The notes under the pieces were generated by a model, which was not told the DNA's origin, did not search any database, and was given only the letters and a program-made list of their open reading frames with translations. The position numbers were made by a program, and so were the translations under genes. Shown here piece after piece: positions 2,588 through 13,071 of a stretch of DNA of 28,075 bases (positions are counted from its first letter, which is position 1; every line of letters begins with the position of its first letter). The DNA lies in IMG/VR virus record IMGVR_UViG_3300035523_000143, positions 1 to 28,075 of that record; one strand, written 5' to 3'. This DNA comes from a virus.

Positions 2588-3433
2588 TCACTGTGCCAGG
2601 GCAAGCATCGTTTGCCACGCAGCCGCAGCTTGCGCCATGGAATCAACCTGAAACACTGCGTCGACTGCCCTTTCTGGGGTATTCAGCACTGTAGTGATGG
2701 AGTGGGTCGCGACGGTACGAAGTGCTAATTGATCCTGCGGACCGCAAGTTGGCGTGATAGCAAAGTACCGGATTCCCAGTGGATTTAGGACCCATAACCG
2801 CGTTTGCATGTGGCGGTAGAGGGCCTTCATCAAGCTACCTTCGTGGGGCAACTGAAGACGCCTGTCAGGCCGAAGTGAAGCCTTAACTCCGGCATAGCCT
2901 ATGATGCCTTCGAAGGTGCAGGCATTTATGAAGGCGAGGTATTGGTTCCTTAGTATTTCAAGAGCCTGCTCGTTGACTTCTTCGATCGGCTCCAGGAGTT
3001 GGACGGCTTGAGGTAGCTGTGTGACGTCCAAGATCACGAAATCCGGATTCGATGTGATCAACTCAACATCAACCTCCTGTACTTTCGCGCGAAGGTCCTG
3101 CACGAAAGCGTACAGCTCCGGCGAATAGAGGCTAGTGACGTCGAAGCTGTCGACATTGGGTAGCGGCAATGCCACTCCAAGCTGGGGATTCGCCGCATGT
3201 AGGTTCCTAGCTGCGATGCCCACTAGCCATTCATACCAGTCGCCGCGAGCGCGCGCGAGGGTCCCCGAATTGACGTCCGGGTTAACCTGCCTTAAGGCCT
3301 CGTCAAATTCATTAAAAAGCGCAACGAACGACTGATCGGGCGCCGGCAGAGCCCCATTCAGAAGCGTCACAAAGGAGGACGGGATGTTGAGTTTGCCGTT
3401 TAGCTGCCCGTAGGGAGCTGGAAAAGTGCCCAT
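2588..3433 (-). CDS. Type II restriction endonuclease, Cfr10I/Bse634I family (predicted R^CCGGY)
   Basis: Restriction endonuclease of 281 aa; Cfr10I is about 285 aa. Several blocks match the Cfr10I/Bse634I family as I know it: GDWYEWLVGI (64-73), DSFDVTSLY (95-103), LITSNPDF (126-133), then VKASLRPDRRLQLPHEGSLM (183-202), followed by KALYRHMQTR, WVLNP.GIRY and TVATHSIT. The catalytic set is PD (Asp131), Lys184 and Glu198. The Lys-to-Glu spacing of 14 equals that between Lys190 and Glu204 of Cfr10I. R188-P-D190-R191 is the CCGG-reading motif shared by this enzyme group. The predicted target is RCCGGY, with tetramer action as in the family. ATG 3433 was chosen (TTG 3436 is adjacent); no clear ribosome site is visible. 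It is last in the minus-strand operon, 72 bases after the glycosylase gene. All key residues are present, so it is probably active. Confidence 0.9.
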   Translation of the reverse strand: MGTFPAPYGQLNGKLNIPSSFVTLLNGALPAPDQSFVALFNEFDEALRQVNPDVNSGTLARARGDWYEWLVGIAARNLHAANPQLGVALPLPNVDSFDVTSLYSPELYAFVQDLRAKVQEVDVELITSNPDFVILDVTQLPQAVQLLEPIEEVNEQALEILRNQYLAFINACTFEGIIGYAGVKASLRPDRRLQLPHEGSLMKALYRHMQTRLWVLNPLGIRYFAITPTCGPQDQLALRTVATHSITTVLNTPERAVDAVFQVDSMAQAAAAWQTMLALAQ

Positions 3434-3505
3434 CAAGAAACGCTATCACGGGGCCACTCGCTGCACAATGCTGGTTGGCTCGGGACATCGACACGGCTCA
3501 CGAGC

Positions 3506-4225
3506 TCATCCAGCTGATCGGTTCGTCCTCGCAGATCCGTAGGAACAACACGTTACTACGGGACACGTTCCGCACCTTGGATTCCCAGCAAGGCAGAAGG
3601 TCGCACCGAGATCGAGAATAGCCCAGTTCACGTTTCTCGCAGCCGCAGCGCGAGACCCAGTGACGGCGCCGGCCAGTTTCCAAATTGCCGGACAACGCCT
3701 CGGTTCATAGCGGGTCGCGGCAGCACCAAATATTCGCTGGATGATGCGCGCTACGTTGGTGTCGACCACAGGCGCGGCCTTGGCGAACGAGACGCAAAGC
3801 AGTGAGTTAGCAGTATAAGGCCCCACGCCAGGGAGCTGCAGCAAGCCCTCGTACGTAGTAGGAATCCTTCCGGTCGGGGATTCTTGAATCGCCGCCCCAA
3901 GGGCTTTCAGTTGCCGTGCCCGTTGGTCAGACAGACCAAGAGGCTGCAGCAGAGCGCGGAGGGAACCTAGTCTGGCTTGAGAAAGGGTCTCAGGGTTGGA
4001 GTACCTGGCCAGGAAAACAGGCAGGAATCTTTCAACAACTGGCGCGGTAGTTTTCTTCAGGAGAACCTCGGCGATCAGGACCACGTAGGCACTCGTGTCG
4101 CGTCGCCAATAGAAGGTTCTGCCGGCTGTTCTAAACCATCGGAGCAGACGCCGCCGGACAGCAGCCGCCTTTGCCCGGAGCACTGGATCGAGTTCGCTAT
4201 TGGCCAAAGGCGATTCTCGCGCCAT
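3506..4225 (-). CDS. HhH-GPD DNA glycosylase, MIG-type T:G mismatch repair (predicted)
   Basis: Base-excision glycosylase of the Nth/MutY superfamily, 239 aa. It shows the helix-hairpin-helix LPGVGPYTAN (131-140), the catalytic aspartate in VVDTNVARI (Asp155), and a 4Fe-4S motif C211-x6-C218-x2-C221-x5-C227. The residue after GVGx is Tyr137. EndoIII has lysine here and MutY serine. The MIG thymine glycosylase of Methanothermobacter, encoded next to a 5mC methyltransferase, has tyrosine. I infer that it removes T from T:G mismatches formed when the neighbouring methyltransferase's 5mC deaminates, a role Vsr plays elsewhere. The longer open frame continues upstream to 4477, but similarity begins only after Met 4225, which overlaps the preceding gene end by 29 bases. 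Confidence 0.85.
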   Translation of the reverse strand: MARESPLANSELDPVLRAKAAAVRRRLLRWFRTAGRTFYWRRDTSAYVVLIAEVLLKKTTAPVVERFLPVFLARYSNPETLSQARLGSLRALLQPLGLSDQRARQLKALGAAIQESPTGRIPTTYEGLLQLPGVGPYTANSLLCVSFAKAAPVVDTNVARIIQRIFGAAATRYEPRRCPAIWKLAGAVTGSRAAAARNVNWAILDLGATFCLAGNPRCGTCPVVTCCSYGSARTNRSAG

Positions 4226-4952
4226 CCGAAAACCGCACAACAACGACGGGACCGCCGATGGTGAGAGTCTCCTCTTCCGAACGCGGGTCGAACCGCCGCA
4301 CCCGGGCTGCGGCTTCTTCAGCACTCGGGACCTTGACGAACGGAATGAGTTCGATGGTTTCACCGTTTGGGTTCGGGTGCTGGGCGAGAAGAGCCAGCAC
4401 GTGCTCAGAGGAAACCAGGTACCCCGTGCCACCGGCGAGAGGCTTCGGCTGGGCGCCCTGGAACACCAAGGTCGCAAACTCGCTCGCCCTGCTTAGGTGC
4501 GAGGTGAGAATGAGGAGGCTTATCTGCTTCTGATTCGCAATGATCTTCGCATCCGCGAGGGTGGCATTGGCCATCTTCACTGTGTAGGGCTCGGCCTTCT
4601 TCAGCGTTCCCAACTCGTGGGTCTGCCTCCCCAGCCAGACCAGATGCTTTCGTTCGTCCAGCTTCATCCATTCGACATCGGGCAGGTTGGCCAGGAGTGT
4701 TTCGGGTTGGTTCCTGCTCGATCCACTGCCGCCAAGGATACTGTCGACGTGAACCGGCATGTTCAGCGTCAAGCGGTCGGCGACGCGCCGCAGTTCAGCC
4801 AGAGGCCGGGTCTTGACCTCGCCCGATATGGTCTTGAGCTTGATGTACTCATCGTCGACTTCCGCAACGCGAATATCGCTCCGGCCAGAGATCGAGTGCA
4901 GTTGCCGGCCCTCCATCTGCTTCAGGGAAGACCGGACTTGGTTCCAATCCAT
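4197..4952 (-). CDS. Unknown protein embedded in the R-M/MORC operon
   Basis: Protein of 251 aa that I do not recognise. The N-terminal 70 residues alternate strand-like segments (GRQLHSISGRSDIRVAEVDD, YIKLKTISGEVKTRPLAELRRVAD), suggesting a small beta-barrel or wHTH-like nucleic-acid or peptide-binding fold. The middle (about 100-185) has LVWLGRQTHELGTLKKAEPY and ISLLILTSHLSRASEFATLVFQG. The C-terminus is beta-rich. There is no signal peptide, membrane segment, Walker motif or obvious nuclease motif. ATG 4952 lies 2 bases after the helicase stop codon and the gene end overlaps the glycosylase start, so it is firmly part of the operon and is expected to work with helicase and ATPase. A specificity or adaptor subunit is possible but unproven. 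Confidence 0.8.
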   Translation of the reverse strand: MDWNQVRSSLKQMEGRQLHSISGRSDIRVAEVDDEYIKLKTISGEVKTRPLAELRRVADRLTLNMPVHVDSILGGSGSSRNQPETLLANLPDVEWMKLDERKHLVWLGRQTHELGTLKKAEPYTVKMANATLADAKIIANQKQISLLILTSHLSRASEFATLVFQGAQPKPLAGGTGYLVSSEHVLALLAQHPNPNGETIELIPFVKVPSAEEAAARVRRFDPRSEEETLTIGGPVVVVRFSDGARIAFGQ

Positions 4953-4954
4953 GT

Positions 4955-6667
4955 CTATAATCTATCCGAAAGCGTCGGCGGAAACTTCAACACGTGGTCG
5001 TCTTCACCAGCCGACTCGATCGCGGCCACATCTTCAAGCCACTCCCGTAAGAACGACTCGGCCTTCTTGTCCTCGCCTCCGAGATTCATGAATCGGACCT
5101 TGCTGCCGATGCTGACGTACTGCGGACCCTCCTGCAGCTTGTTCTGAAGGTCCAGTCCCGCAGCAAAACGGCGAACATCTGAGACGAAGTCGAGAACGAT
5201 CACCTTGTCTTTTCCGGATGCGATCCTCAGCCCACGTCCCAGCTGCTGCACAAAAATCCGGCGGCTGTGCGTCACCCTTTGGAAAACGACGATGTTCACG
5301 TCAGGAAGGTCGATTCCTTCATTGAGAAGATCCACTGCGCACAAGACGCCAATATGCCCATCGTGGAAATCAGCGAGGATTTTCGATCGCTGCGCGTGAC
5401 TGAGTCGCGGAGCGCCCGGACTGCCTGCATACAGAGCCTCCGCACGAGTGAACCCCAACCCGTTCACGCGGTCGCGCATCGTGATCGCGTGGTCGATGTT
5501 GCCGCAGAATACGATGGCGCGCGCGTGAGGGATTTCGTACCACGTATCCTTGAGCTTCTGAACTACTGCGTCATCCCATTCCTGGATGAAGATCGTTCTG
5601 TTGAGGCCCCGCGGCGTGAGATGATGCGCGCGGTTGAGCTCCTGCCAGTTGATGTTGTCAACGTGCATTCGGTAGTCGACATTTGACAGCCACCCCATCT
5701 TGAGGCCTTGCACGATATCTACACAAGAAACCGGCTCGCCGAAGAGCGAGTGGATGCTCGTTCCGTCTGGACGCCAAGGAGTTGCGGTCATCCCGATCAG
5801 GAAGGGACCATCTGGCGTCCCGCTCCGAATGGCCGCCAGAACCGCGCGGTACTCGGCACTTCCTGCATGGTGGCATTCGTCCACGATCACTAGCTCGACA
5901 GGCAAGTCGAGCCTTCCAGCCACCTGAAGCTTCGAGGCGACTGAATCAATGCATGCGAAGGTCAATGTTGCATCTGGATCGGGGGTCTCATAACCGTTCC
6001 AGACTCCGGTGATCTCGGATTTGTCTAGACAAGGCCAAAACGCCCGCTCCAATTGATAAACAAGATCGTTGGTATGCGCCAGCACGAGCGCGCGCATGCC
6101 CGGGTGGGCAGCTCTCATTCGCCGGTACGACTCCGCTGCGACGAAGGTCTTACCCAAACCGGTTGCCATAACAACCAGTGCAGCACGGTGTTTGCCCTGT
6201 AGCGAAGCACTAACAATCGACGCGATCGCGCTCTCCTGATAGGGGCGTGGCTGTCTTGTTGTAAGGGACTGTGCTGGCAGTCTTTCCCATTTCTTGGACA
6301 GCGTGTTACGATCCCAGAGTTGAAGTGGAGTGCCCGCAGCCATCAGCAGTGACTGTTGTGTTCGCGCCTGATCGGTGAAGCCGAGGTTTGTCGCAACCAC
6401 TGGGACGTCCGCGCGGTAGACATGGGCGGCCCGGATGGTCTCATCCAAGACTTCGACCCCGATACTCGCCGCCCGGCGGCGCTTCACTTGAACGAGCCAC
6501 CGCTTCTCGTTCCTATGAGCCAAGATGTCTGCACCCTCGTCACCACTCTGCCCTAACAGCCGGACCCCAGTAAACCCTTCGCTCATCAGCAGCCTGCCAA
6601 CGGATCTCTCTAGGTACTGCCAGCTGCAATTCGCCAGAACGTCGTTCGATAGGAAGCCGCGGTGCAT
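4955..6667 (-). CDS. SF2 DEAD/DEAH-type helicase with N-terminal Mrr-like nuclease domain
   Basis: Fusion protein of 570 aa. Residues about 15-115 form a restriction-endonuclease (Mrr_cat) domain: helix YLERSVGRLLMSEGFTGVRLLG, then GDEGADIL with Asp47 and WLVQVKR with Gln60 and Lys62, i.e. a complete D..QxK set of the PD-(D/E)xK fold. Residues about 138-530 form an SF2 helicase: ATGLGKT (168-174), DECHH (263-267), GMTATPWR (292-299), and QQLGRGLR motif VI (474-481). It probably translocates on duplex DNA and cleaves it. ATG 6667 lies 4 bases after the stop of the ATPase gene. The open frame upstream is an overlap with that gene and is not similar to the family. Such helicase-nucleases are known genomic partners of prokaryotic MORC ATPases. 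Confidence 0.92.
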   Translation of the reverse strand: MHRGFLSNDVLANCSWQYLERSVGRLLMSEGFTGVRLLGQSGDEGADILAHRNEKRWLVQVKRRRAASIGVEVLDETIRAAHVYRADVPVVATNLGFTDQARTQQSLLMAAGTPLQLWDRNTLSKKWERLPAQSLTTRQPRPYQESAIASIVSASLQGKHRAALVVMATGLGKTFVAAESYRRMRAAHPGMRALVLAHTNDLVYQLERAFWPCLDKSEITGVWNGYETPDPDATLTFACIDSVASKLQVAGRLDLPVELVIVDECHHAGSAEYRAVLAAIRSGTPDGPFLIGMTATPWRPDGTSIHSLFGEPVSCVDIVQGLKMGWLSNVDYRMHVDNINWQELNRAHHLTPRGLNRTIFIQEWDDAVVQKLKDTWYEIPHARAIVFCGNIDHAITMRDRVNGLGFTRAEALYAGSPGAPRLSHAQRSKILADFHDGHIGVLCAVDLLNEGIDLPDVNIVVFQRVTHSRRIFVQQLGRGLRIASGKDKVIVLDFVSDVRRFAAGLDLQNKLQEGPQYVSIGSKVRFMNLGGEDKKAESFLREWLEDVAAIESAGEDDHVLKFPPTLSDRL

Positions 6668-6671
6668 CCCT

Positions 6672-9215
6672 TTAGAGCCCCGGCCGCAGATTCCGGAAGA
6701 GCAGGTGCAATGTTCGCTCGACACGAACAATGTAGCCCGGATCAGATTGCCTCGTGTCCAGGAAGCCCACCACATCGTCCAGCAAGTTCCGATACCTGGC
6801 GAGGACAACTCCCTGAATCTGTCCTACCGTGGCGGGGTCCTCTACCGGTAGCTTCTGGTAAGAGTCCGCCCAGAAGCATCCGTCAAAAAAGCGCTCCGGG
6901 AATTTCTCGACCACCAGCGCGACCAAACGATGTTCCAGAAATGTCAGGTACTTGCCGGACTTGATCAGATCTGGTAGCTGGCTGGCGTCAACGCCGTTCT
7001 GAACTATCGTACGGACCAGAGATCCTTGATCCGGTGCCGGCAGTATTCGATAAAACTCATCTGCGGCACCGTCCATCAGTTCAGGAAGGTTTTCTCTGAG
7101 GGTCTCAAAGAACTCCTCCGCCCGCTTTCGAGTCCGGTCTGGATTGATTGAAAGTCGATCCCTCCAGTAGTTCGATGAAATGCGCCAGGACAAAGCAGGC
7201 AGCGACCAGAGATGAGCTTTGTCGCCACTCATGAACCGTGCGTTCGCGTCCTGAAGAAGCCGTGCCGCCTCCATGCAAATCACATGCTCTGGCCTGACTT
7301 GATACTCACTAAACAGCGGGTGCGACGGATCGATGAATACTTTCAAGCCCTGATCGCGGTGTACGACGGCGGGCAACGCGGTCCCGTCTCTTACCAGACT
7401 GATACCTGGCTTCAGTGTGTAGACGTTGATATCCATCGGGGGACAAGTCGCGTTGTCCGGAAGCGGAATCGAGAATGCCGCAATCGAGAGGTCGTCGTCC
7501 TTGTTCGAGCTCTGACTCAGGAAATCGAGACTCAGGGGGTTGACCTCGCCAAGTGGGCGCCCGCAATTCAGGCACGATTGCGAGGACTGTGGATTTTCAC
7601 GGCTGCAGTAAGAACATCTCCACCGTCCCTGCTGGCGAACGTCTTGAGACTGGCCGCACTTCGGGCAGACCACCGCCGAGCGGGGCATCTCAGCGGCGCA
7701 GTCGGCGTCTATACAGGCCTTCCCAACAAATACGTGATCACACCCGGGGCAAGACTCTGTGCTCGCCAGGCACTGGAACCCGCATTCAGGGCACTCTTTC
7801 AGTTCTGTGGCTGGCTTATTGTCAGACTGTTCAACAAGCTTCCACCATTCGCTGTCGTCGTAAAACCCTGGCTCCTTGCGTCTGAACTTCTCGAGGTACT
7901 CGGCCTCCTTTTCTCTGCTGATGCGCTTCGGACGGTCCTCCCCGGCCTCCCAATAGCCCATGTAGACATCGCGAGTTCCGACGTCGCGTACACGACGGTA
8001 TCCCTGGTAAAGGGCATAGACCGGAGATTCGTTCTTCGGCTCCCCAGCCTCAGCAGCAACCTTTGGTTGCAGTGAGCTTTCGCCGCGGAGGAAGGTGATG
8101 GCCCTCGTCCATTCCGGACTTGTTCTTTGGAAGTCCTGTTTCAGGAAATCTGTCGGCACATGATCAAGATGTACTTCCCCGACGATCCGGCCAAATGGGC
8201 TGTCAATCGGGTAGTCCTTGATCTGCCGGCCGCGAGCATCAGTCCAAGAAAAGAAGGCTTCTTTCTCCAGAATGCGGATTGCTCTTCCATTCCGGATGAG
8301 GTCAATTCCGTAATGGTTTGCATCATCGTATCGTTGGATCCCGACCCAGCCCTTGATCCGCTCTTGAACCGTTCGGGAAGCCGTATTCTTGCCGCACTGG
8401 GGGCAACCACTCCCGTCCACGAGGGTAAAACACTGAGCGCACCGAACCTGGGAGGCAAGCACCCTGTCAAAGCGCATAACGGCGGCGATGTTGCCGAAGT
8501 CGCGATGAGTCACAAACCGGCGATCAGACCAGATGCAGTGCTCGAATGGATCGACGATATCGTCGCCGACGAAGATCCGGACCACGCCATCCCGAAGCAA
8601 CGTCGAATACCGCCGGCCCAGCTGATCGCGAATCTCGTTTTGACCCAATCTGACCAGCTTCTCGGCAAACCCGGCATTCGGGTTGCCCGACGGCCACCAT
8701 TGCTTGACCTCCACCAGGGTTCCATGGAAGTTTGGAGGATCCTTCGGGGAGATCCGGACCGGAACGTCGTATGTCCGTCTCTGTACCATCTCCTCAAGGT
8801 CGATCTCGACTGTGAGCATCTCCGCACTGTCCTGCTTAGCCGTCTTGAAAACGGTTTTGCGGGCTAGCTTGCCAGTTGAGATATTGAAGCCCATCCCAAA
8901 AAGACCCAGCCTGTCGAATGGGTTGTTTGAGCTGAAGCCCGCACGAAGAGCGTTCTGCGCTTCGTCAAGGGTGAGACCAGGGCCGTTGTCCAGAACCGCA
9001 ATCGATCCGCGTCCTCGCGAAACCTCAGCCACTTTCGGCAGGTATACGGTTACCGTATTGTTTTCCGAGCCCTGCTGCCGGAATTCACTCGACGCAAACG
9101 AGTCGATGCTGTTGTCGATCAACTCGCACAACGCGTCCAAGGGGCGCATCGGATTGCGAGTGATTGCCAGCAGAATCCGGGGATCAGGCTGGAGATTGAT
9201 TCTTTCCGCAGGCAC
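6672..9215 (-). CDS. MORC/paraMORC-like GHKL ATPase with multiple zinc ribbons
   Basis: ATPase of 847 aa. The GHKL fold shows the N box ELIDNSID (31-38, Mg-binding Asn35), VLDNGPG (74-80) and the lid GLFGMGF (104-110). There is no histidine-kinase H box. A DNA-topology or clamp role like MutL/MORC is expected. A zinc ribbon (Cys259, 262, 271, 274) is inserted in the S5-like part. A zinc array follows: Cys475/478/489/492, Cys501/506/517/520, and W532-x-C534-x2-C537-x3-N541-x6-C548-x2-C551, an exact RanBP2-type finger. The C-terminal 280 residues are helical and unassigned. The start is GTG 9215 with AGGAGG 9 bases upstream; it overlaps the methyltransferase end by 32 bases. The frame before it is not family-like. 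MORC relatives are known from R-M gene neighbourhoods. Confidence 0.88.
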   Translation of the reverse strand: MPAERINLQPDPRILLAITRNPMRPLDALCELIDNSIDSFASSEFRQQGSENNTVTVYLPKVAEVSRGRGSIAVLDNGPGLTLDEAQNALRAGFSSNNPFDRLGLFGMGFNISTGKLARKTVFKTAKQDSAEMLTVEIDLEEMVQRRTYDVPVRISPKDPPNFHGTLVEVKQWWPSGNPNAGFAEKLVRLGQNEIRDQLGRRYSTLLRDGVVRIFVGDDIVDPFEHCIWSDRRFVTHRDFGNIAAVMRFDRVLASQVRCAQCFTLVDGSGCPQCGKNTASRTVQERIKGWVGIQRYDDANHYGIDLIRNGRAIRILEKEAFFSWTDARGRQIKDYPIDSPFGRIVGEVHLDHVPTDFLKQDFQRTSPEWTRAITFLRGESSLQPKVAAEAGEPKNESPVYALYQGYRRVRDVGTRDVYMGYWEAGEDRPKRISREKEAEYLEKFRRKEPGFYDDSEWWKLVEQSDNKPATELKECPECGFQCLASTESCPGCDHVFVGKACIDADCAAEMPRSAVVCPKCGQSQDVRQQGRWRCSYCSRENPQSSQSCLNCGRPLGEVNPLSLDFLSQSSNKDDDLSIAAFSIPLPDNATCPPMDINVYTLKPGISLVRDGTALPAVVHRDQGLKVFIDPSHPLFSEYQVRPEHVICMEAARLLQDANARFMSGDKAHLWSLPALSWRISSNYWRDRLSINPDRTRKRAEEFFETLRENLPELMDGAADEFYRILPAPDQGSLVRTIVQNGVDASQLPDLIKSGKYLTFLEHRLVALVVEKFPERFFDGCFWADSYQKLPVEDPATVGQIQGVVLARYRNLLDDVVGFLDTRQSDPGYIVRVERTLHLLFRNLRPGL

Positions 9216-10512
9216 TGGCCTTAACCTCCTCCTCGCCGGGGCGGATCGGAGTTCCGGCGCCCAGTATGAACTGTCTGAGTGAGTGACCGACCGCTGCCGC
9301 GAGCTGGACAGGTACTCCATTTCCGATGAGCTTGAATTTGAATGACAGCGGCATCTCCGACGGGAGTGCATAGCCGTCAGGCACCGTTTGAATTCTCATC
9401 GCTTCTCGAACCGTCAAGCGTCGGGGCTGCGCCGGATGTAGATGTACCTCATTGTTGCCATAGGCTGCTGTGGGACTGTACCGGAAGCGGTGCAATCTTT
9501 TGAAGGATTTTCGGGAATCATCACCTTCCGCGATAACCGTGAACTTGTCGCTCTTGGGCGCGAAGCCTTCTCGCCCGTTCGGAAGACTGGCCGTAGCTTC
9601 GACGTCAAGTATGAGCGGAGCCAGACAAAGTTGCTCCGGCAAACCGCCCGGCATCGCGGGCTCAGCACCAAACGGTGACGTGGAAGGCCACGGAAAGCGC
9701 TTCTTCGCACCTCCGAAAGCTGGATCCTCTGGCCAAGGGAACCACCCGCGAGCGCGCTTGTCGATGCGCAGTCGATAGATCGCCCGGATCAACTCACGAC
9801 GGACGCCGACGATGAAGACACGCTCGCGATCCTGCGGAACGCCGAGTTCAAGTGCGTTAAGCACCCGGAGATCAACCGCGTAGCCCGTCTCCTCAAGCTT
9901 CCACAATTCCTGATCGAGGAATTCCCGGTGGGCTCGTGTGCTGATCAACCCCTTTACGTTCTCGATCAAGAAGAATGAGGGTTGGAGTTCACAAATCCGC
10001 TCGATGAACACTTGGGTGAGTTGACCGCGGTTGCCGGCGAATCCACGATTCTTGCCGCCAACCGAGAAATCAGGGCACGGGGGCCCGCCGATCATGCCGA
10101 AGTGGTCTCCCCTCTTCAACGTCCCAAGCGCTTCACGCCGGATTGCCGCTGGCCCTTTCTTTCGAATGTCCTCCCGGCAACTGATGGTCGGAGCGGCGCC
10201 TCGAATACTCTGGCTGGCAAACAAGGTCTCCATTCCATTGTCGTGCGCATCACAGAAGGCCTTCTGGACTTCAAGACTCCACACCACGGGGAAGCCGGCC
10301 CTGGTCATTCCCAGATCCAAGAAGCCACCTCCAGTGAAGAGCGAAATCAACGGAGGGGTGCCGTCGATGGGAATAAAGGAACGCGTTCTGACGTCGGCGA
10401 GACTGCTTGCTCCGTTGCGGAGCACGATCCTAGGAGTATCCATAGCAGGGTCACGGTACCTCAAAAACAACTGAGACGGGTGCTCCGGTGCGTCGATTTC
10501 CCGGATGCTCAT
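9184..10512 (-). CDS. DNA (cytosine-5) methyltransferase
   Basis: C5-cytosine methyltransferase (442 aa from this start) transferring methyl from S-adenosylmethionine to cytosine. It shows motif I as LFTGGGFLDLG (58-68), motif IV GGPPCPDFS with catalytic Cys146, motif VI ENV (184-186), motif VIII QDRER (227-231), motif IX RRLTVREAMRIQTVPDGY, and motif X GNGVP. The target-recognition region lies around 250-350. As partner of the Cfr10I-like enzyme it should modify RCCGGY, though that cannot be read from the sequence. The ATG at 10512 has AGGAG 5 bases upstream and is preferred. ATG 10554, whose first base is also the first base of the TAA stop of the preceding gene, and ATG 10530 are alternatives that add a poorly conserved tail. 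Confidence 0.95.
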   Translation of the reverse strand: MSIREIDAPEHPSQLFLRYRDPAMDTPRIVLRNGASSLADVRTRSFIPIDGTPPLISLFTGGGFLDLGMTRAGFPVVWSLEVQKAFCDAHDNGMETLFASQSIRGAAPTISCREDIRKKGPAAIRREALGTLKRGDHFGMIGGPPCPDFSVGGKNRGFAGNRGQLTQVFIERICELQPSFFLIENVKGLISTRAHREFLDQELWKLEETGYAVDLRVLNALELGVPQDRERVFIVGVRRELIRAIYRLRIDKRARGWFPWPEDPAFGGAKKRFPWPSTSPFGAEPAMPGGLPEQLCLAPLILDVEATASLPNGREGFAPKSDKFTVIAEGDDSRKSFKRLHRFRYSPTAAYGNNEVHLHPAQPRRLTVREAMRIQTVPDGYALPSEMPLSFKFKLIGNGVPVQLAAAVGHSLRQFILGAGTPIRPGEEEVKASACGKNQSPA

Positions 10513-10553
10513 CGAGTCTCCTGTTGCCATTGAGTCGGCCTTTCCTCCCTGCA

Positions 10554-10778
10554 TTAGCGCACATCAAACGGGAGCTTCGGCCCCCCTGACGCTTCTTCGA
10601 TGAAGCGATCAATCGCCTGCCTAATCAGCCAGGCAACACTCACCTTGTACTTGGTCGCAAGTTCTTGCAGCACTTCCCTTTGGGACACCGTCAGGGTTGC
10701 CGTGATCCGGGATGGCCGCTCGGCGGCACCTCCGTTCGCTTCGCCTACGGCGCTCATCGCAGAATCGCGTTCCTGCAT
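10554..10778 (-). CDS. Ribbon-helix-helix regulator heading the R-M operon
   Basis: Protein of 74 aa with a ribbon-helix-helix fold: strand RITATLTVS, helix QREVLQELATKYKV, and helix VAWLIRQAIDRFIEEA. It is CopG/MetJ-like and would bind DNA as a dimer through the beta strand. It is the first gene of the minus-strand operon, and its stop touches the first possible methyltransferase start (TAATG). By position it is the likely autoregulator, replacing the C-protein of other R-M systems. Three direct repeats with 10-bp period overlap its start region and are plausible operators. GTG 10781 is an alternative start directly before ATG 10778. Confidence 0.8.
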   Translation of the reverse strand: MQERDSAMSAVGEANGGAAERPSRITATLTVSQREVLQELATKYKVSVAWLIRQAIDRFIEEASGGPKLPFDVR

Positions 10779-10799
10779 CACAGTGCATCATACCGCATC
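10775..10799 (-). promoter_or_regulatory. Three GATGC direct repeats at exact 10-bp period (candidate RHH operator)
   Basis: On the minus strand GATGC occurs at 10799-10795, 10789-10785 and 10779-10775, one helical turn apart, spanning the start codon of the RHH gene. Between them lies TATGAT (10792-10787), a fair -10 box that would give an almost leaderless transcript; no convincing -35 box is visible. RHH repressors commonly bind tandem short repeats, so this is a likely autoregulatory operator. Confidence 0.45.
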
Positions 10800-10878: not shown

Positions 10879-10906
10879 TTTTGCTTTTTGTTCGCCATGA
10901 TACAAT
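10879..10906 (+). promoter_or_regulatory. Candidate promoter for the rightward early genes
   Basis: TACAAT (10901-10906) is a good -10 box. TTTTGC at 10879-10884 is a weak -35 box with 16-base spacing. It lies in an A/T-rich stretch unlike its surroundings and about 100 bases before ATG 11004. The direction fits the plus-strand operon. Confidence 0.4.
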
Positions 10907-11003
10907 TAAAGGTACAGTTGCGCTCCAGGCCGCCCGCCTGACGTTGTTTCGACGGGGTTCGACCTGCCGCTACAGACTACGTATCTCCTTGAGGTGTCTG
11001 AAG

Positions 11004-12164
11004 ATGGCGTTCAAACTCAAGTGTTTTTCTCATCCGGACGTGCTGAAGCAATTTCAGCCCGAGATCTTGATCCGGCTCCTGGAAACCTCCCGACTTTTCT
11101 TTGAGATGAAGGGCTTCGCGATCCCGGCACCGGAGGCCGGCGATCTCGACTACCTCGCTCTCGCGGGCATCCTTGCGGAGCCGGACGAGGATATGCCGGC
11201 CGACCTGGTCGAGGCACTGCATCTCATCAGCGAACTGGGGACCGACGAGTACTTTGACGATCTGCTCCAGCTCGCCGCAGAGGCCGACCTTGAGGTGACG
11301 GACGAGATGACCGCTTCGGATCTCGCGGCTCGGATCTGGCTACAGGACCCGCAGTTGTTGGAGCGCAGGGACCGTGAGGGGCTGTTTGATCGCCGCAAGT
11401 CCTTCGACAGTTTCCGCGCGTCCGATCCGGAGCTCGCCATCTCCGTCCATGAACTCCCCGCCGACCTTACCGGGCTGGAAACCGAGCTGGGCATCTACTT
11501 CAAGGAGAAGAAAAAGGGGAAGGGTTGCCGCGTTATTCCGAGATATGCGCCAGCGGAGGTTCGCTTCCTCGTGCAGCATGGGCAGCCGTGCCGCCGCGAA
11601 CCAAGCCGAAAAGGGGCGCAATCGACATGCACATTCTTCCGGCCGGAGAGGACTGATGTTGTCGTCCTCGATCTCACCCATCGCGAGTTGCGGATGAACG
11701 CGGCCAGTGCACCGGATCTGCGGAAGTACCGCGAGCTATTCGGTCAGCACCTATTCGGCAATCCCCAAACCTTCGTCTACGCCGAGAAGTACACGCTGGA
11801 ACCCCTGCGCGCCCATGGTGAGGATTCGCTCCGATGCCGTGATGTTGAGGGAGTGGACTCAGTCCGCGTGACGCAGATGGACTTCGACTTCGGGGGCGCC
11901 TTCGAAAACGTGGTGACGGAGCGGGCGCACGATGTGTTCAAGGCGATGGCGCTCCGACGTGCTGGCATCCCGGCGGAGCCAGTCATCCGCAAGGCAGTGT
12001 TCAAGGTAAAACTACAGGGAGAAAAGAAGCCGCGCACGGTGTCGGTGAGAGCGGGCAACAAGGCCGGGTACCAGCGCGGCGAGGAGTCCACCATCGTGGA
12101 AAACTGGCTGCGGGCACGCGGATTCATCTTGCTGGGCACAAAGGCGTATGCGGAGGCTGCCTAA
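11004..12164 (+). CDS. Unknown protein, first gene of the early operon
   Basis: Protein of 386 aa that I cannot assign to a family. It begins MAFKLKCFSHPDVLKQFQPE, and the first 170 residues are acidic and helical, with ASDLAARIWLQDPQLLERRDREGLFDRRKSF suggesting a domain boundary. The remainder is mixed alpha/beta, with TDVVVLDLTHRELRMN and a basic end (KAGYQRGEESTIVENWLRARGFIL). There are no transmembrane segments or nucleotide-binding motifs. ATG 11004 is preceded by GAGGTG at 8 bases. The open frame upstream to 10881 would run into the promoter. The gene overlaps the next one by 17 bases. As first early gene it could be a replication or regulatory factor, but nothing in the sequence proves this. 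Confidence 0.8.
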   Translation: MAFKLKCFSHPDVLKQFQPEILIRLLETSRLFFEMKGFAIPAPEAGDLDYLALAGILAEPDEDMPADLVEALHLISELGTDEYFDDLLQLAAEADLEVTDEMTASDLAARIWLQDPQLLERRDREGLFDRRKSFDSFRASDPELAISVHELPADLTGLETELGIYFKEKKKGKGCRVIPRYAPAEVRFLVQHGQPCRREPSRKGAQSTCTFFRPERTDVVVLDLTHRELRMNAASAPDLRKYRELFGQHLFGNPQTFVYAEKYTLEPLRAHGEDSLRCRDVEGVDSVRVTQMDFDFGGAFENVVTERAHDVFKAMALRRAGIPAEPVIRKAVFKVKLQGEKKPRTVSVRAGNKAGYQRGEESTIVENWLRARGFILLGTKAYAEAA

Positions 12165-13071
12165 GCTCTGGCGGAGCCTGGAGCGGATCACCGGGCTCCT
12201 GGCGGTGCCTGCCGTGTGGGAGACGGAGTGCGGTGAAGATTTCGGCTTCCTGCGCCCTCATCTCCGGCCGACCGAGATGGTAGGGACGCTGTATCCGTGC
12301 CCGCACCACTTTGGCGAGTGTCCCCGCAAGATCGTCGACTATGGCGATGGGGAGTTCGCGGCGATCTGTCGTGACCCGTATAAGTCCTGCGACAGGATTC
12401 CGCTGGCCCCGCGCGACGCCCTTCTTCACGACCTGGACCTCGCCTCATTCTTGAAGCCCGTTCTGCAGGCCGCCTCTATCCGCCCGGAGCCTCCAAAGCC
12501 GCGCGCACCGGGTACATGGAGTCTGGGACTGGCCGGAAGATCGAGTTCGCTCGCGCCGGCGTTCCTCGTCGTCGCTCATAGCGGTGCGGCGTTCGAGGCT
12601 TCGGTGCGTGACCTGCTGCTCGACGTCTCCGGGCAGTTCCTGCTGGTGGTCCCCACGAACAGGTACCGTAGCGCCGAAGTCCAGGAGAGGATCCAGGCAA
12701 GTAGCTGCAGCTACCTCTGTCTGGAGGAGATGGTTGGCGTGGACGAGAGCGGAGCGTTCCGCCTGCTGGAAACCGCCGACTCAACCACGACGGCACCTGA
12801 CTTGGCGACACCCGACCGTGCAACCGACCGTTCAGTTGGAAGCGAGGCCGCCGTTGCAGCAGTCCGCGACTACATCGCCGCAAAGGCATTGACGTTGACG
12901 ATGTTCGGTAATCAGTTCGACACTACCGACCGGACGCTTCGCCGGTTTCTGAAGGACGGCAAGATGAGGCGCGCCAATTTTGAGGCCATGGCCGACAGCA
13001 TCGGCGTCTCCTCGGAACAGCTGCTTCGGGGCGAATTGCCTGCATCCATCAGGCGCACCGCGCGTCGCTAA
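12148..13071 (+). CDS. Unknown protein with Cys/His cluster and C-terminal helical domain
   Basis: Protein of 307 aa, family not recognised. The N-terminal part carries a putative metal-binding cluster (YPCPHHFGECPRK at about 49-61, then ICRDPYKSC at about 73-81). The middle has LAPAFLVVAHSG and QFLLVVPTNRY, which look like the strands of an alpha/beta domain. The last 70 residues (AVRDYIAAKALTLTMFGNQ, DRTLRRFLKDGKMRRANFEAMADSIGVS) resemble a helix-turn-helix of the XRE or transposon type. ATG 12148 overlaps the previous gene end, with AAAGG close upstream; other internal starts are possible. The pair with the upstream gene looks co-translated. Confidence 0.75.
   Translation: MRRLPKLWRSLERITGLLAVPAVWETECGEDFGFLRPHLRPTEMVGTLYPCPHHFGECPRKIVDYGDGEFAAICRDPYKSCDRIPLAPRDALLHDLDLASFLKPVLQAASIRPEPPKPRAPGTWSLGLAGRSSSLAPAFLVVAHSGAAFEASVRDLLLDVSGQFLLVVPTNRYRSAEVQERIQASSCSYLCLEEMVGVDESGAFRLLETADSTTTAPDLATPDRATDRSVGSEAAVAAVRDYIAAKALTLTMFGNQFDTTDRTLRRFLKDGKMRRANFEAMADSIGVSSEQLLRGELPASIRRTARR

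Follow-up and report, generated by a model that had tools for sequence, protein, structure and literature searches.

The 28,075-nucleotide stretch of viral DNA analysed here (IMG/VR record IMGVR_UViG_3300035523_000143, positions 1 to 28,075; hereafter the window) carries a seven-gene operon in which a MORC-type ATPase and an Mrr-nuclease/superfamily 2 (SF2) helicase are followed by a protein, here called UNK, that resembles a nuclease-less type II restriction enzyme. We consider it an even proposition that the operon encodes a MORC-class ATP-dependent restriction-modification (R-M) system that uses a dead restriction enzyme as target reader and has an optional type II enzyme attached. In such a system, the C5-cytosine DNA methyltransferase (MTase) would mark host DNA at one site, and UNK, or whichever protein occupies the position after the helicase (slot 3), would use its type II recognition module, which lacks a nuclease, to find the same site when unmethylated. 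The MORC clamp ATPase and the Mrr-helicase would then take over the DNA, loop it or translocate along it, and cut it. A glycosylase may mend the T:G mismatches that arise from deamination of the 5-methylcytosine made by the MTase, a role that Vsr would have in most relatives. A ribbon-helix-helix (RHH) protein would act as regulator, and a Cfr10I-type enzyme would contribute conventional cleavage, probably of a site that the operon's MTase also protects. For this system we infer restriction activity, the reading role of slot 3, the formation of a complex, the order of these events and the identity of the site; the gene content and order, co-inheritance, intact motifs, nuclease loss in three slot-3 families and matching MTases described below were observed directly.

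The UNK gene (window positions 4197 to 4952, minus strand; 251 amino acids (aa)), the product of which is the proposed target reader, begins 2 bases after the helicase gene. An earlier reading made from the DNA letters alone (the sequence-only reading) listed UNK as an unknown protein and so missed the most informative gene of the operon, which encodes a restriction-enzyme module without a nuclease. UNK had no Pfam match and no Protein Data Bank (PDB) match by sequence. It matched the PADLOC type II restriction endonuclease (REase) family REase_II PDLC03534 (2.6e-7) and, by BLASTP, an REase-like open reading frame (ORF) of the sister locus L007 (3e-8). Residues 1-122 of UNK form an N-terminal restriction-enzyme module and residues 143-251 a C-terminal VOC-like domain, and the nuclease domain is absent. 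The near-invariant block HVDSVLGGSGSSRNQPET lies within the N-terminal module, which is common to the PDLC03534 type II enzymes. The C-terminal part of these enzymes is a portable nuclease domain, and plasmid enzymes match residues ~181-345 alone. The AlphaFold2 (AF2) model of UNK had a predicted local distance difference test (pLDDT) score of 85.8, and the N-terminal module modelled alone reached 93. The C-terminal domain is predicted from the model to have a VOC fold, as residues 143-251 fitted the paired beta-alpha-beta-beta-beta arrangement of 4lqb_B (Z 9.4, 2.5 A, 101 residues; best Foldseek E 3.1e-5).

The same kind of loss was seen at slot 3 of other loci. Survey loci were retrieved by the MORC protein alone; the 100 distinct loci obtained came from many phyla and include plasmids and viral contigs. 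Slot 3 could be compared in 85 loci, where it was occupied by several unrelated families (38, 14, 13, 5, 4, 3 and 3 members, plus singletons; the last groups include displaced MTase or Vsr genes), and its start lay no more than 20 bases from the helicase stop in 77 of them. UNK itself was the gene after the helicase in 15 loci. In L052, L053, L054, L056 and L063, slot 3 was a protein of the MvaI/BcnI family, matching the best annotated plasmid REases (MvaI/BcnI family endonucleases) at 34-42% and having R.MvaI as its closest solved structure. The motif PDYKGIELK, present in three live relatives, was replaced in all five proteins (for example by KPNYRGIVVN or KAQYKGIVIT), the N-terminal extension was also missing, and none of these loci showed a live MvaI-like enzyme. 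Here, "live" means that the motif is intact, the catalytic role of the motifs being read from PD-(D/E)xK enzymes and the MvaI alignment. The slot-3 proteins of L016, L018, L019 and L024 (373-aa type) are full-length relatives of two ORFs, L016:16400 and L113, the latter adjoining a C5 MTase in Acinetobacter sp. NEB 394. Both ORFs have PD...EFK, which was lost in all four slot-3 proteins while the remainder was kept. Judged from these comparisons, slot 3 in three unrelated families appears to be a type II restriction enzyme that has lost its nuclease: the catalytic residues are gone in two, and the nuclease domain is absent in the third, the window's own UNK family.

A slot-3 protein that reads the site protected by its MTase should have an MTase that groups with the partners of live enzymes, a prediction that could have failed. 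Among 106 MTases compared, the MTase partner of L115, a live MvaI-like enzyme, was closest to those of L053 (70%), L054 (67%), L052 (63%) and L056 (48%), with the next match at 29%, and the recognition regions agreed wherever they could be excised. The MTase partners of L114 and L116 were closest, after each other, to that of L063. The double methyltransferase that partners L113 had all eight MTases of L016, L018, L019 and L024 as its first matches, and the MTase partner of the live PDLC03534 enzyme of L011 was closest to the MTases of the UNK loci and of the truncated L023. In each of the three slot-3 families, the neighbouring MTase thus seems to be of the type that partners a live enzyme elsewhere. 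We tentatively propose, with confidence a little short of even, that the specificity of MORC/Mrr-helicase restriction was drawn from captured type II R-M pairs, with the dead endonuclease as an S-subunit-like reader for the sites of the old MTase and with several origins (MvaI/BcnI, 373-aa and UNK/PDLC03534).

Several points weigh against this proposal. Common descent within each family means that the MTase matches represent few independent events. No restriction-enzyme relative was found for the two remaining large families at slot 3, of 38 and 13 loci, which leaves the reader idea unproven for the class as a whole, and in a fourth family (L021, L027 and L042) two members kept an apparent catalytic motif. 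A structure search with the N-terminal module of UNK gave no confident PDB match and weak matches to small barrels (best Z 6.5), and DNA binding by UNK is suggested by the place of this module in a restriction enzyme. Ligand or modified-base sensing might be the function of the VOC-like domain. The last point is the basis of a different account, in which UNK reads modified phage DNA in a type IV-like manner, or senses a small molecule, and does not read an unmethylated site. The C-terminal VOC fold (Z 9.4) is what this account would explain; we regard it as improbable, since its N-terminal module belongs to a type II enzyme that has C5 MTases as partners, and the dead MvaI-like and 373-aa proteins can be aligned along their length with REases that show no VOC-like domain. 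Searches for restriction-enzyme relatives of X3-type and actinobacterial slot-3 proteins found nothing. The idea that UNK and X3 form a single family was rejected, as they had no profile similarity; an alignment of the two was spurious.

The UNK family and its module were also seen in other settings. No UNK was found in plasmids, and samples of 299 and 396 genomes from two phyla yielded matches in the respective seed genome only, which indicates that the family is rare outside MORC loci. Stand-alone proteins of the N-terminal module (122-132 aa) are encoded at L020:7162-7530 (minus strand), L022:7258-7629 (minus), L009:8282-8677 and L007:13740-14138 (minus), three of the four on the opposite strand near the operon; it is possible that they are regulators or decoys. 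A 571-aa candidate defence protein (PADLOC PDC-M26A; L022:17655-19370, minus strand) begins with the UNK/REase module, which indicates that the module moves between systems. The plasmid "type II restriction endonucleases" L117-L120, which have the EVEH nuclease domain, had no MTase in flanks of ~2 kb, and three of the four lay beside heavy-metal or copper genes; these enzymes are possibly solitary or modification-dependent.

The survey also defined the unit to which slot 3 belongs. Where enough sequence was available (93 loci), the helicase was the next gene after MORC in 89, and a C5 MTase lay within ~8 kb of MORC in 90 of 100, which is more than the chance grouping that the sequence-only reading had allowed for. 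The Mrr residues D47 and Q60xK62 were kept in 90 of 92 helicases, as were the helicase motifs; the residues were counted from alignment columns, strict MORC-motif and Mrr regular expressions having missed many relatives. The invariant core is the MORC ATPase and Mrr-helicase pair. The fixed unit comprises this pair, a subfamily-specific third protein and the C5 MTase, with a repair slot and variable endonucleases around it. The sequence-only reading had taken all seven genes as the unit and the Cfr10I enzyme as a fixed half of a composite system. The complete set occurs in the window and in no other surveyed locus, and the Cfr10I family was found near 5 of 15 UNK loci (window included) and 0 of 86 others (p=3.8e-5), so the full set is not the fixed unit. 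Cfr10I is an occasional, exchangeable add-on.

In the repair slot, Vsr was near MORC in 59 loci, a glycosylase in 8 and both in 1; one or the other was nearby in 66 of 100, leaving 34 with neither in the flank examined. This pattern bears on a mismatch-repair-like function, in which MORC would be a MutL analogue, the helicase a UvrD analogue and slot 3 a site reader, which together with Vsr or glycosylase would repair deaminated methylation sites. MORC is related to MutL (PMC2292703), and two-thirds of the loci have a repair gene. We nevertheless think such a function unlikely, given the 34 loci that lack one, and because restriction better accounts for the patchy distribution, the carriage by phages and plasmids and the presence of an Mrr nuclease.

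Two further observations were made around the core. In two Paenibacillus genomes (L012:14084-20504 and L013:14221-20493), the MTase-MORC-helicase-UNK operon continues into DruF-like and DruE-like genes; there, a Druantia-like system appears to be joined to the MORC R-M core. A second C5 MTase, of another subgroup, lies near the core one in the UNK loci L010, L011, L012, L013 and L022.

In the window, the operon consists of seven ORFs running from 10781 to 2588 on the minus strand, all present, intact and tightly packed, and the catalytic motifs examined in their proteins are intact. ORFs and family scans bore out the gene order of the sequence-only reading, and its lower boundary at 2588 was correct; the upper one is 10781, where the RHH gene closes the operon, in place of 10778. 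From the RHH gene to the glycosylase gene, intergenic distances range from -32 to +4 bases. The RHH (CopG-like) regulator (10554 to 10781, minus strand; 75 aa, GTG start; PF01402, 1.3e-5) is also the leading gene at L007 and L008. The C5 MTase gene (9184 to 10554, minus; 456 aa; PF00145, 9e-53) overlaps it by 1 base; its product has the motifs PPCP, ENVKG, QDRERV and GNGVP and belongs to the orthologous group of UNK-locus MTases with a conserved target-recognition region. The gene for the MORC-type GHKL ATPase (6672 to 9215, minus; 847 aa) starts at a GTG behind AGGAGG and overlaps the MTase gene by 32 bases. The ATPase matched HATPase_c_3 (1.2e-11), has CxxC zinc-ribbon motifs and has ELIDNSID as motif I. 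Its MORC-specific S5 motif, GIDLIRNGRAI at residue 303, and its closest PDB entries, human MORC3 and MORC4, agree with the MORC identity given to it earlier. Following a 4-base gap, the Mrr-nuclease and SF2 helicase (4955 to 6667, minus; 570 aa) matched Mrr_cat (9.7e-20) and ResIII (2.8e-29) and has the motifs ATGLGKT and DECH. The HhH-GPD glycosylase gene of MIG type (3506 to 4225, minus; 239 aa) overlaps the UNK gene by 29 bases. The protein (HhH-GPD, 9e-14; closest solved structure MIG.Mth, 1kea, 5.2e-36) has LPGVGPYTA, with Tyr in LPGVGxYT, PVVDTN with the catalytic Asp, and 4Fe-4S cysteines spaced C-x6-C-x2-C-x5-C. The sequence-only reading called it a T:G glycosylase; the match to the MIG-like family (1kea) was found, and the T:G mismatch type is a predicted family assignment, not an activity.

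The last gene (2588 to 3436, minus; 282 aa, TTG start) encodes an accessory type II endonuclease of the Cfr10I/Bse634I family (PF07832, 2.9e-50; closest structure 1cfr, 3.1e-56). Its active-site residues (PD...K...E, RPDRR) are present, in SNPD...KASLRPDRRLQLPHEG, and its specificity is predicted from the family to be R/CCGGY. RCCGGY was not avoided in the window, where 78 sites were observed and 50 expected. This gene is separated from the glycosylase gene by 69 bases, a gap that, together with the replacement of Cfr10I in L007 and the presence of the modules on opposite strands at other loci (L017), is consistent with two independent systems packed together: a Cfr10I-type R-M system (RHH, MTase, glycosylase and REase) and a separate MORC-helicase defence module. 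We give this arrangement a modest chance at best, because the MTase, MORC, helicase and UNK are co-inherited, with agreeing distance matrices (Mantel r 0.95-0.98, 12 loci), their genes overlap or abut, and the MTases are matched. Alternatively, Cfr10I might be the effector, and MORC, helicase and UNK might merely assist by holding the two sites that it requires together in a DNA loop; this follows the looping idea of Iyer 2008 and comes close to the sequence-only reading. Enzymes of the Cfr10I family are tetramers that act on two sites (PMC4081073), and the family was found solely beside the UNK version of the core. This explanation, too, has in our view a rather small probability, as Cfr10I is missing from most loci, including the 93%-identical sister L007, the helicase retains its own nuclease residues almost throughout, and a live MvaI-like enzyme was not seen at the dead-MvaI loci.

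The genes around the operon belong to a fragment of a temperate phage, with a serine integrase, a Sak4-like protein, a primase, small and large terminase and ParB; the R-M context (MTase and REase families) and phage-like location proposed by the sequence-only reading therefore held. Beside the operon (10881 to 13068, plus strand), two adjacent genes (427 and 307 aa) had no PHROG match, and an apparent homologue of the 427-aa gene sits inverted in L007. On another viral contig, the sister locus L007/L088 matches the window at 93% identity across 6.7 kb, from the RHH gene through the end of UNK, whereas the phage backbones are only 74-75% identical, which indicates that the defence genes travel independently of the phages. 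Between the two loci, dN/dS (the ratio of nonsynonymous to synonymous substitution rates) was 0.05-0.09 for MTase, MORC, helicase and UNK, indicating purifying selection on these four core genes. Identity drops inside UNK, the two glycosylases have clearly diverged, and L007 lacks Cfr10I. Its place there is taken by the PDLC03534 ORF, followed by a protein with a weak Mrr match. In this ORF the nuclease motif EVEH(S/T), which is kept in four plasmid relatives and L011, has become QICCG. Fourteen further viral contigs (L089-L102) have MORC-like ATPases, most with a helicase and an X3-type third gene, which indicates that prophage carriage recurs. No MORC was found among INPHARED phage records.

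If the proposed system operates as outlined, MORC/helicase systems guided by dead REases would constitute an ATP-dependent restriction class of their own, with reader, motor and nuclease-helicase separated onto distinct proteins. Bacterial MORC ATPases have been assigned to restriction operons since 2008; the dead-enzyme pattern provides a concrete, testable reader for target recognition by such systems and suggests that each system reads the site of the live relative's MTase. It may also be relevant to the way in which eukaryotic MORC proteins are guided to DNA. The limited literature searched contained no description of a nuclease-dead REase as reader in a MORC/helicase system, or of a variant with glycosylase and Cfr10I; the dead enzyme as third core component and this variant are what we consider new.

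MORC operons with helicase, C5 MTase and Vsr, including a Rad25-like helicase fused to an RE-fold nuclease, were described by Iyer, Abhiman and Aravind (2008, PMC2292703), who defined the S5 motif as GhXhhpXXRhl, predicted looping, and named no reader for the Rad25-like/RE-fold helicase type. The window shares with these operons the S5-motif MORC ATPase, the SF2 helicase with N-terminal RE-fold nuclease, the C5 MTase and a mobile location. It differs in that a nuclease-less REase derivative follows the helicase and a Cfr10I enzyme is attached. Vsr, frequent but not defining in those operons, is not among the seven genes; a MIG-like HhH-GPD protein is present instead, sharing with MIG.Mth (1kea) the Tyr in LPGVGxYT, the catalytic Asp and the 4Fe-4S cysteines, at the usual place of Vsr in a MORC operon. 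The Cfr10I-like enzyme resembles the type IIF enzymes Cfr10I and Bse634I in family, active-site spacing and RPDRR; it is accessory to a MORC core, whereas theirs is a stand-alone pair. The mzaABCDE and Z1/PD-(D/E)XK/C5-methyltransferase systems, as described in PMC9523054 (and in Gao 2020 as cited there), are likewise MORC-associated and have a C5 MTase, a helicase-like ATPase and a nuclease, but their Z1 helicase, DUF4420 nuclease and AIPR had no match in any operon protein of the window. Of Druantia (DruE with partner Dru proteins), the window has only an MTase that resembles DruM2. The nearest mechanistic precedent is CglI/NgoAVII (PMC4267653, PMC5737866), which also combines a DNA MTase, a separate SF2 ATPase, a separate site-reading R protein and ATP-driven cutting. 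There, the R protein combines a PLD nuclease with a B3 reader, a Z1 domain is part of the ATPase, and MORC is absent (neither a PLD-B3 R protein nor a Z1-containing ATPase had a Pfam match among the operon proteins); in the window, by contrast, the nuclease is on the helicase and the putative reader is nuclease-less.

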